Source: Gemmatirosa kalamazoonensis (GTDB lineage Bacteria > Gemmatimonadota > Gemmatimonadetes > Gemmatimonadales > Gemmatimonadaceae). From it: a DNA stretch of 64,000 nt. A model generated the notes under the pieces. The model had not been told where the DNA came from. It saw only the letters and a list, made by a program, of their open reading frames with translations, and searched no databases. Positions 33,612-37,753 of the stretch are shown here, piece by piece; the stretch's first letter is position 1, and every line of letters begins with the position of its first letter. The translations under genes and the position numbers were made by a program. The stretch is taken from assembly GCF_000522985.1 (NCBI RefSeq), contig NZ_CP007128.1, positions 1,162,220 through 1,226,219 on the forward strand, given 5' to 3'.

Positions 33612-36121
33612 CTAACGAGCGTACAGCGCCGAGTAGAACGCGCGGTTGCGGCTCACGATGCGCACGTAGTCGCGCGTCTCGTCGTACGGGATCCGCTCCA
33701 CGAACAGCTCCGGGTCCGCGGTCCCCGCGCGGCGGCGCCACCGCGCGACGGGCGTGCCGCCGGCGTTGTACGCGGCGAGCGCGTACGCGACGTCGGGGTA
33801 CGCGGCGAGCGACGACGCGAGATGCCGCGTGCCGAGGGCCACGCTCACGTCGGGCTGCCGCAGCAGCGCCGGCGCCCACGGCACGCCGGCGCGCGCCGTG
33901 CCTAACGCATCCCACAGCGATCGCCCGACGGGCGGCATGATCTGCATGAGCCCCACCGCGCCCACGGCCGACGTCGCGCCCGGCGTGAAGCTCGACTCCT
34001 GACGGATCACCGCCGCGACGAGCGCCGGGTCCATGTCGCGCGCGCGCGCCGACTCGCGCACGAGCGGCTGCCACGGCCACGGGTACAGCGCGCGATAGGC
34101 CGATGCCGACGCCGGGGCGCCCCGCTCCATCGCGCGGCGCGTGAGCCGCATCCCGCTCGATGTCGCGCCCGCGTCGCTCAGCGCGCGCGCGGCGGCGAGC
34201 AGTCGCGCTGCCGACGTGTCCGCCCACCGCGCGAGGCCGTCGCGCTCCCACCCCAGCTCCGGGTCGAAGCCGATGCGCTGGAGCAGCGCCAGCCGCCTGA
34301 CGGTCGCGCCCACCTCCTCGGGCGGCGCGCCGGCCGCGTCGCTGCCCTCGGGTGCCCACGGCGGGCGGCCGAGTCGGCGGGCGGCGAGCATCGCGTAGTA
34401 CGACGCGGGAACGCGCGCCGCCGCCTCGCGCCACCGCGCGCGCGCACCCGCCGAGTCCCCGACGCCGCGGCGGCGCGCCCGGCCCAGTACGTCGCCGCGA
34501 GCGTCTCCTCGCTCGGCGTCGTGTCGGCGCCGGCGCGCGGCGTGACACGCGTCGCGCGCAGTGCGTCGAGCTCGCGCAGCGCGGTCGCGGCGTCGCCGCC
34601 GGCGAGCGCGATGATCGCCGCGTCGAATCGCGCGCGCGGTGCGCGCACGCTCCCCGGGTGCTCGCGCGCGAGCCGCAGGAGCACGGCACGCGCATCCGCG
34701 TCGCGGCCCTCGTCCACCGCGAGGTCGGCGAGCAGGTAGAGCGCGCTCGCCGCCGCCTCGGTGTCGCCGGAGAACGTGCGCGCCACCTCCTCGAGCGCGG
34801 CACGCGCGCCGGTCCCGCGGGCCCGCAGCGACAGCCGCGCGCGCTGGTACGCCGCGTCGCCGGCGAGCGGGCCGCCCGCGGCGCGCACGCGCGCGAGCTC
34901 GGCCATCGCGTCGGCCGTGCGGCCCGCGCGGGCGAGCAGCGTCGCGTACGTGTAGCGGTCGCGCGTCGTGCCCTGCCCCGCCGCGAGCGCGCGCGCGTAA
35001 CCCGTCACCGCGCGCGCCGCGGGCCCCGACGCCGCCGCGCTGCGCGCCACCGCGAGCTCCTCCGCCGGCGTGAGGCGGCCGAACGCCGCGTCGAGCAGCT
35101 CCACCGCGTCGCGCGCCTCGGTCGTGCCGCTCCGCGCGGCGACGAGCCGCACGAGCGAGTCGCGCAGCGGCGCGCGGCGCGGGTCGTTAGGCGCGAGCGC
35201 CGCGAGGCGGAGCGACAGCGCCTTCGCCGGCCGTCCCGCGGCGGCCCACGCCGCCGCGGCGCCTAACGTGTCGGCGGCGCGCTCGCGCGCCGTGGCCTCC
35301 GACGCGGGGGCGCGGTCGCGCGCGGCAGCGAGCGACAGCCGCGCGTAGGCGCGCGCACGCTCGGCGGAGTCGCGCGTCAGCTCGGCGCCGCGCAGCGCGA
35401 GCCAGTCGGCGATCTGCGGCAGCAGCGACGCGGCGGCGGCGTACGCGGCGCGCGCGCTGTCGGCGAGCGCGCGGGAACGGTCGGCCGGTGCGTTCGGGCC
35501 GGCTCGCTCGTCCTCGGCGACGCCGGCGAGTCGGTCGAGCGCGCGGGCGACGAGCGCGAGGCGCACGCCGCGCTCCGTCGCGTCGCCCGCGCGGGCCGCC
35601 GCGCGCCGTGCCGCGTCGAGCGCATCGCGGGCGAGCGACTCGCGCGACGCCGCCGGCGCGCCGACGCCGCGCGCGAGTGCCGCGCGCGCGACGAGCAGCG
35701 GCCCGAACCCGCGCAGCGCCGAATCGGGAACTTCCGCGGCGAGCTTCGCCGTCGTCGTCCACTCCTCGCGCTCCGCCGCCGCGGCCGCGGCGAGCAGGAG
35801 GATCGTCGGCGTGCGGCGCGCGGGGTCGGCGAGCGCCGGCGCGAGGGCAGCGGTCGCGCGCCATCCGGCGTCCATCGCGAGCGCGTCGCGCGCGCTCCGC
35901 GCCGCGGCGTCGATATCGGCCGGGAGCGTCGCGATGATCGCCTCCGCGTCGCTGCGCGGCGGCGTGTCGTGCGCGTTCGGCGTGGCCGCGACGTCGCCGT
36001 CGTCGGCGTGGGTGTTCGTGGCGTCGCACGCGAGCAGCGCGACGAGCGCGAGCAGGGCGAGCGGCGCCACGCGCGCGCGTGTGGTCGTGGCGCGGCGGGC
36101 GTCGGTCGAGCGGTGTGTCAT
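33612..36121 (-). pseudogene. Soluble lytic transglycosylase (Slt-like) with TPR region, frameshifted at a G4 run
   Basis: An 836-residue protein if repaired. Residues about 1-45 contain a lipobox (LVALLACD). A long helical TPR-like superhelix follows to about 640. The catalytic domain is near the C-terminus: IRQESSFTPGATSAVGAVGLMQIMP (catalytic Glu) and ALAAYNAGGTPVARW. The frame breaks at the G4 run (complement of 34457-34460). Upstream the text runs to YWAGRAAAASG; adding one G continues DSAGARARWREAAARVPASY into the catalytic frame, which is otherwise intact. It is either a recent mutation or an assembly error. The enzyme would cut peptidoglycan in the periplasm. The stop TAG is in CGTTAGGC. 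Confidence 0.88.
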
Positions 36122-36670: not shown

Positions 36671-36957
36671 ATGACGTCACTGCTTCGGTTCACGGATGCA
36701 CGCGGAATAGAGTGGGAGGTGTGGGAGGTCGGTGCGCGTCCCCAGCCGGTCGATCGCGCGCCGGGGCCCCGATGCCGCGCTGGCTCTGCTTCGAGTCGGC
36801 GACGGAGCGCCGGCGGCTCGCGCAGTACCCGGAGCGCTGGCACGTCATGACGCCGCAGGAGCTCGATACGCTCTGCCAGTCGGCGCGGCCCGCGCGGCCC
36901 AGCCCCACCGACCACAAGGCCGTACCCGCCGAGCCCCGACGCTCCGAGCGTCGCTGA
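36671..36957 (+). pseudogene. Small protein of the W-x-V/F-x-S family, frameshifted at GGGGCCCC
   Basis: The first 32 codons from ATG 36671 read MTSLLRFTDARGIEWEVWEV and end at RAPG. The text then jumps frame at 36763-36770 (GGGGCCCC). One extra G restores PMPRWLCFESATERRRLAQY, then YPERWHVMTPQELDTLC, giving about 95 residues. The joined protein shares W-x-V-x-x-V, L-x-F-x-S, R-R and P-x-x-W with its two neighbours. I do not know the family's function. The gene converges on the next, 12 nt away. Confidence 0.6.
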
Positions 36958-36969
36958 CCGCCGCGGCGC

Positions 36970-37350
36970 TCAGAGGGCCGCGGTGGCGCGGTCGCCGGGC
37001 GTGTCGTTAGGCGGGATCGGCGGCAGGGGCGCGGCGGCGCGGGGTGCGGAGGCGCGGGGTCCGGCGGCGCGGGGTGCCGTCGCGACGGCGCGCTGCAGGA
37101 TGGCGGCGATCGCCGAGTCCTCCAGCTCCTCCCAGCCGTCCGGGACGGGCCCCCAGCGTCGGCGTTCGCCGGTGGCCGACTCGAACGCGAGCCATCCGCT
37201 CGCGAAATCCGGGGGCAGCGGGAGCCGCTCGCGCCCCGTGGCAGGATCCACGAGGCGATGGCGCTCGAGCCACACCGGGAGCACCGCCCAGACCTGCCAG
37301 ACGACGCCGTAGTCGTCGCTGATGCTGCGTAGCACGTCGGTTCGCCCCAT
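36970..37350 (-). CDS. Small protein of the W-x-V/F-x-S family
   Basis: A 126-residue frame using the ATG at 37350 (MGRTDVLRSISDDYGVVWQVW); a longer start at 37392 adds 14 residues. The core is VVWQVWAVLP, then SGWLAFESATGERRRWGPVP and DGWEELEDSAIAAIL. It shares spaced residues with the genes on either side. The last 40 residues are a low-complexity Ala/Pro tail. Function unknown. Confidence 0.6.
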   Translation of the reverse strand: MGRTDVLRSISDDYGVVWQVWAVLPVWLERHRLVDPATGRERLPLPPDFASGWLAFESATGERRRWGPVPDGWEELEDSAIAAILQRAVATAPRAAGPRASAPRAAAPLPPIPPNDTPGDRATAAL

Positions 37351-37507
37351 CGCGCGCCGGGAACTCGGCGCACGACCGAAGCTCGCAAGCATCAGGCCGC
37401 GTTGTGACGCGGATCACGCTCTTTCGGGTGGTCGGCTTTCCCCGTGATGGGGGTCACCGCGGCCCGACTCTCGCTAGGCCAGCCGCTCTGACCCTTCACC
37501 GGACTTC

Positions 37508-37753
37508 ATGCTCGCCGCCCACGACGACTCCGGCGGCTCGCCCTCGGGCGGGCTGCCGTCGCACGATCCGGTGTACTTCCAGGCGCCGGACTACACCCAC
37601 TGGACCGTGCACGAGGTCCACGATCCGGTGACGCCAGGGGGCCGTGCGCTGCTGTTCGTCTCCTCGGCGGGCTTCCGCCGCGTGCGCAGCTTTCCCACCG
37701 ATTGGCGCCGGCTCTCTCCCGCCGACCTCTGGAAGCTCTCCTGGCAGCGGTGA
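37508..37753 (+). CDS. Small protein of the W-x-V/F-x-S family
   Basis: An 81-residue protein: HWTVHEVHDP, then GGRALLFVSSAGFRRVRSFP and TDWRRLSPADLWKLS. The order W-x-V-x-E-V, L-x-F-x-S, R-R and P-x-x-W repeats that of the two genes before it, which suggests local paralogues. It may be a small regulatory or structural protein; no motif is known to me. The TGA lies in the first unit of a tandem repeat. Confidence 0.6.
   Translation: MLAAHDDSGGSPSGGLPSHDPVYFQAPDYTHWTVHEVHDPVTPGGRALLFVSSAGFRRVRSFPTDWRRLSPADLWKLSWQR

Follow-up and report, generated by a model that had tools for sequence, protein, structure and literature searches.

A previously undescribed family of small, duplicated and diverged domains in Gemmatirosa kalamazoonensis and other Gemmatimonadota

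Three neighbouring small genes of Gemmatirosa kalamazoonensis, located at positions 36671-37753 of the window (the whole 64,000-nucleotide stretch of DNA that was analysed), are duplicated and diverged members of a previously undescribed small-domain family, of which no published description was found in a literature search. The family is strongly expanded in some lineages, with local duplication, and has so far been found in Gemmatimonadota alone; members elsewhere could exist. With a probability of about 0.3, the products are read as binding modules that stand on their own, probably act as dimers and most likely hold single-stranded nucleic acid.

The genes of the window were examined with a test profile that was built from 59 domains, exclusively from other genomes, and run on the 861 six-frame open reading frames (ORFs) of the window. 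The highest score (56.7 bits, E 6.3e-17) was that of gene 2 (36970-37350, minus strand), a long-type member (WLAFES...ERRR) of 126 aa with MGRTD as its likely start. This was followed by the C-terminal half of gene 1 (36671-36957, plus strand; 49.5 bits, E 1.1e-14), by gene 3 (37508-37753, plus strand; 47.6 bits, E 4.2e-14), a short-type member (ALLFVS..FRRVRSFPTDWRRLSPADLWKLSW) of 81 aa that has a close relative in genome G009 (L102:7941-8144), and by the N-terminal half of gene 1 (20.6 bits, E 1.2e-5). With the same profile no further family member was detected among the window ORFs at E <= 10, and 18 of 20 Markov-shuffled windows gave no match, the top score in this control being 13.6 bits. 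The restriction of the matches to genes 1-3, together with the shuffle control, therefore indicates that their common pattern reflects homology. A sequence-only reading of the region had proposed one unnamed family on the basis of W-x-V-x-x-V, L-x-F-x-S, R-R and P-x-x-W at similar spacing. All four motifs are indeed present in gene 1 (WEVWEV, LCFES, RRR and PERW), gene 2 (WQVWAV, LAFES, RRR and PDGW) and gene 3 (WTVHEV, LLFVS, RR and PTDW), and a single profile built without their own genome picks out all three. The low overall identity that it had reported was confirmed, since pairwise BLASTP alone is weak: the C-terminal half of gene 1 matched gene 2 with E 1.5e-7 and gene 3 with E 1.9e-4, and gene 2 matched gene 3 with E 0.5-0.8. 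The ORF coordinates also bear out the +, -, + order inside 1.1 kb, in which the divergent genes 2 and 3 have an upstream region of 157 bp in common (37351-37507).

One correction concerns gene 1, which has no single open frame. The N-terminal half of gene 1 (MTSLLRFTDARGIEWEVWEV, with W-x-V-x-x-V) is read in the frame used by ORF 36671-36850, and the C-terminal half (RWLCFESATERRRLAQYPERWH, with L-x-F-x-S, RR and P-x-x-W) in the frame used by ORF 36712-36957. The variable linker that connects strands 2 and 3 contains the break. An intact paralogue is present at G000:C2:1643960-1644187, of which the DNA is 73% identical over a matched stretch of unequal lengths. The assembly of G. kalamazoonensis KBS708 was made from PacBio reads only (PMC3974934). 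Because of this, both a residual indel error and a real pseudogene are possible explanations of the broken frame. A second probable frame break was observed 0.5-3 kb away, at 33612-36121 on the minus strand, where what looks by its motif like one lytic transglycosylase gene is spread over ORFs 33612-34391 and 34178-36121, whose frames overlap, in a stretch of 81% G+C.

The genome-wide count that the sequence-only reading had suggested as a check was carried out with an alignment of ten domains from the own genome (A1), which found 12 places corresponding to 11 genes, seven on the chromosome, three on C4 and one on C3. Ten of these had supplied the rows of A1, and the search added one gene, C2:4991633 (E 1.1e-13). 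When 40 relatives were searched with A1 at a threshold of E <= 0.01, matches were obtained in 14 genomes; G019 had 41 places, G014 18 and G009 13. Local iteration yielded 106 distinct domains, 67 diverse ones of which form alignment A2. In these 67 rows W14 and W63 are invariant and L45, F47, R54, R55, P60 and L71 are conserved in at least 90%; the signature reads R-x-F-x-D-x-x-G-x-x-W-x-V-x-E ... W/S-L-x-F-E-S-x4-R-R-L/V-x-x-Y-P-x-x-W-x-x-L-S-x-x-x-L. A search with A2 gave matches in 72 of the 179 genomes of the taxonomic family, the other 107 being without a match, and in 75 of 395 genomes of the phylum; copy numbers from both searches are lower bounds, because fewer candidates were scored per genome than in the A1 search. 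The matches in the phylum were distributed over families f1 (54), f6 (11), f2 (6), f5 (2), f4 (1) and f7 (1), those in f2, f4, f5 and f7 being single and weak (E 2.5e-8 to 6.8e-4). Outside the phylum the search consisted of one short-type pattern, not the full profile, and among 84,980 species it returned 14 stretches, 11 of which were confirmed, all from Gemmatimonadota by title. A search of viral contigs with alignment A4 gave four stretches, none of which was confirmed.

Across 124 pairs aligned without gaps, which were 55-97% identical, substitutions at the first, second and third codon positions numbered 1939, 1660 and 4242. The dN/dS ratio was 0.04-0.51 in all 117 of these pairs with a defined dS, a count that exceeds the number of independent pairs as some are the same loci fetched twice. 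The coding sequence of the family is thus under purifying selection. These values largely refute the proposal that the genes are duplicated small ORFs that drift, with little function under selection, with which the broken frame of gene 1 and a stop in 8 of the 116 places found in the relatives would agree, and which is considered highly improbable.

Duplication was analysed in 91 domains from the loci retrieved for six genomes. Neighbouring domains within 1.5 kb of each other formed 22 pairs, 4 of them inside one two-domain protein; the 18 intergenic pairs were tandem (8), convergent (6) or divergent (4). In G019 11 gene pairs were counted, against about 0.4 expected for 38 genes placed randomly in 6 Mb. 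The best BLASTP partner was found in the own genome for 31 of the 38 domains of G019, for 3 of 12 in G000, 1 of 13 in G009, 5 of 17 in G014, 0 of 6 in G013 and 2 of 5 in G015. These counts imply both old diversity and recent local expansion. Two genes on C4, at 762482 and 215095, share 70% DNA identity over 828 columns.

Several loci showed further arrangements. Arrays in which four to seven diverged domains lie in a few kb were present at L163:1670-6162, L061:10264-13876 and L064:8487-10042, in which several long-type members end in RRLIE. A helix-turn-helix gene was located among the array domains of L163 (HTH_19, E 5.5e-6), with a BLAST relative in L061. At L163:5312-5554 the array has an 81-residue neighbour (ARWRVIPI ... 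GLLFTSDDAEMRF) without a Pfam match, which is perhaps very distantly related to the family. Two contigs of G019 contain the same convergent pair of short-type genes 23 bases apart (L067:7238-7595 and L077:8195-8579, 75% identical over 399 bases), and L062:7335-7617 resembles one half of this pair.

A separate feature of the window is the octamer CGTTAGGC, which occurs at 60 sites (e.g. 742, 37005 and 37842; shuffle mean 0.99). The own genome contains 4469 copies, evenly on both strands, compared with 133 of the reversed-pattern control. Among the relatives, 3411 copies were counted in G019, 3754 in G020, 858 in G005 and 834 in G011; of the other 35 genomes searched, 34 had at most 62 and G029 had 168. 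Conservation does not extend to the flanks of the octamer, which resembles a DNA uptake sequence or another genome-wide signal; a literature search for a DNA uptake sequence in Gemmatimonadota found nothing. The DNA upstream of 38 domain copies in G019 revealed no private motif, its top word being this same genome-wide octamer, and a link between octamer and family copy number was rejected, as G020 with its 3754 octamers has no family gene. In contigs C95, C43 and C80 of G024 the octamer is arranged in same-strand runs with a spacing of mostly some 400-800 bases, which resemble integron attC cassette arrays.

The profile search that the sequence-only reading had also called for delineated one family without a usable match in Pfam, NCBIfam, PADLOC or the PDB sequences, and with one weak match in PHROGs. 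The first four of these collections gave isolated weak matches at most. One of these, in Pfam, of the C-terminal half of gene 1 to DUF7047 (PF23088; E 0.03, 14.9 bits against a curated cut-off of 27 bits), was attributed to chance, as none of ten own-genome domains matched at E <= 1 and none of the 67 members at E <= 0.1. A tblastn match of the consensus in five Klebsiella phages (best E 0.05, in an endonuclease VII-like gene) was likewise rejected as chance, the family profile scoring -0.2 bits there. These searches bear on the possibility that the genes serve in genetic conflict, as antitoxin-like, immunity or defence elements whose copies multiply and diverge in an arms race. Such a role would be in line with the patchy spread, in which the 107 matchless genomes contrast with the one that has 41 places, with the clustering of diverged copies and with the presence of a split copy, gene 1, in the window. 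However, PADLOC matched only 1 of the 67 members (E 0.037) and PHROGs also 1 of the 67 (an unnamed family, E 0.0033), phage and plasmid sequences yielded no credible tblastn match, no toxin gene was seen to recur among the neighbours, and dN/dS is low. Conflict elements are therefore regarded as unlikely.

The structures of genes 2 and 3 were predicted by AlphaFold2 from small alignments (A6, 19 rows; A7, 18 rows) that combined window sequences with those of related loci. For gene 3 the mean pLDDT was 87.2 (92-96 in the core blocks), with strands at 22-25, 31-39, 45-51 and 56-59 and a helix at 71-78. For gene 2 it was 82.7 (85-95 in the core blocks), with strands at 8-11, 17-23, 53-58 and 63-66, a helix at 78-91, a small helix at 27-30 and a Pro/Ala-rich tail of low confidence. 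The elements coincide, and the aligned residues of genes 3 and 2 are W32/W18, F50/F56, R57/R64, P63/P70 and W66/W73. Both genes thus have the same predicted beta-beta-beta-beta-alpha fold with high core confidence, so that differing folds, which would have spoken against a single family, were not seen in the two of the three genes that were modelled. The long and short types differ in the insert between strands 2 and 3.

Foldseek searches with the gene models gave no match at E <= 0.001 in the PDB and none in BFVD. With VIA-align, run separately for each model, Mycobacterium tuberculosis topoisomerase I 636-704 was found for gene 2 at ranks 1, 2, 4 and 5 (Z 4.4, 4.2, 3.9 and 3.8; rmsd 3.5-4.1; 57-59 residues aligned), M. 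smegmatis topoisomerase I 771-838 for gene 3 at rank 3 (Z 4.0, rmsd 5.1, 63 aligned), and human, fly and Borrelia PUR repeats at Z 2.8-3.4 across both lists; all these matches are weak, with Z below 5, values that according to the tool may reflect a common arrangement alone. Beta-propeller pieces, GH43 and Lgl2 score equally high, and because many unrelated structures score alike the likeness to topoisomerase I and PUR is a lead only. What the family has in common with Topo_C_Rpt (Toprim_C_rpt, PF13368), to which the C-terminal repeats of mycobacterial topoisomerase I belong, is a predicted four-stranded sheet with a C-terminal helix in about 65 residues, a short first strand, and aromatic and Arg residues on the sheet. 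The element order agrees with the four-stranded antiparallel sheet and crossing helix of Topo_C_Rpt, although the VIA-align Z is just 3.8-4.4. In contrast to the tandem repeats of topoisomerase, the family genes are free-standing, and the glycine-flanked R + Y/F in the strand 2-3 turn of Topo_C_Rpt is absent as a feature of the family; D-R-R is found there in 8 of the 15 short-type rows of A4, directly preceded by Y or F in 7 of the 8. None of the 67 members matched the Topo_C_Rpt profile at E <= 0.1. With PUR proteins (Pur-alpha, Borrelia Bpur), whose repeats likewise bind single-stranded DNA, the family shares the beta-beta-beta-beta-alpha order and the existence of single- and two-repeat proteins, whereas it has no sequence match to them (none of the 67 members to the Pfam PUR families at E <= 0.1) and has many diverged paralogues per genome. 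Borrelia Pur-alpha is reported to have the beta4-alpha order and to form an intertwined dimer (PMC2954813); in the fly protein, the dimer of PUR repeats I and II is reported to be intramolecular.

The sequence-only reading had suggested no function for the family. The mechanism proposed on the basis of these models is that each domain would act as a free-standing binding module. The helix would cover one face of the four-stranded sheet, with L48, F50, V34, W32 and V59 of gene 3 facing it, and the opposite face would expose an aromatic residue at 35, W at 47 and R58 (gene 3 numbering), an assignment made by strand alternation and not from coordinates. Residue 35 in strand 2 is W, Y or F in 72 of 105 domains, residue 47 in strand 3 is W in 51 of 106 (the W of the long types), and the Arg pair of strand 4 is R in 94 and, at R58, in 91 of 105. 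A face with aromatic residues and Arg would be suited to contact with a dimer partner or with single-stranded nucleic acid. A homo- or heterodimer is probable, because two-domain proteins and the 18 intergenic neighbour pairs within 1.5 kb exist. In the two-domain proteins the second copy keeps W, L-x-F and P-x-x-W and loses the Arg pair, which would suit an asymmetric pseudo-dimer. Single-stranded DNA or RNA would most likely be held on the aromatic/Arg face, as in the C-terminal repeats of mycobacterial topoisomerase I, which are reported to bind single-stranded DNA by stacking on an aromatic residue of strand 3 and one of the strand 2-3 turn. Expression or DNA handling might be modulated in this way, with a different target for each paralogue. 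The invariant Trp and near-invariant Arg could in principle be catalytic in a small enzyme. This has little probability, as the domain, of about 65 residues, conserves no set of Cys, His, Ser or acidic residues and no enzyme-like sequence match was found; the absence of a conserved Cys/His/Asp catalytic set also speaks for a binding module.

Against the binding of nucleic acid it must be said that the domains lack a basic character, with a mean net charge of -0.2 and 38% of 91 above 0, and that the neighbour genes at 72 loci showed no consistent functional link. For this neighbourhood analysis three duplicate loci were dropped before the counts, and genes were called with a crude script of our own, not a published gene finder. 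The charge-neutral domains would fit protein-protein adaptors or inhibitors, in which the sheet face binds a different partner for each paralogue, e.g. a signalling protein or regulator. Also compatible with adaptors is a helical module (A8) that was fused to the domain, at either end, at all four places where it was found in 40 genomes, as is typical of protein-interaction parts; a Pfam scan of the proteins with this module gave no credible match. Response-regulator-like genes were present within 600 bp at 11 loci, but this proximity is not an enrichment (11 near, 36 far; Fisher p 0.22), and none of the neighbours is shared by many loci as a partner gene; the top-ranking neighbour family occurred at 3 loci (p 0.006 before correction). 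Adaptors are tentatively considered nearly as likely as a nucleic-acid binding module. The complete form of the nucleic-acid reading, in which phylum-private, expanded, free-standing and dimerising beta4-alpha modules would bind single-stranded DNA or RNA with a fold convergent with the topoisomerase I and PUR repeats, is more doubtful than either.

The occurrence of up to 41 places per genome without an entry in Pfam, NCBIfam or the PDB represents a large blind spot in the annotation of Gemmatimonadota, which rank among the ten soil phyla of highest abundance (PMC8547001). With a confident predicted fold and few invariant residues, the function of the family is directly testable in one cultured strain. 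If the binding of single-stranded nucleic acid by these modules is true, they would make up a class of small regulators that is new, in a soil phylum that is abundant and hardly studied.
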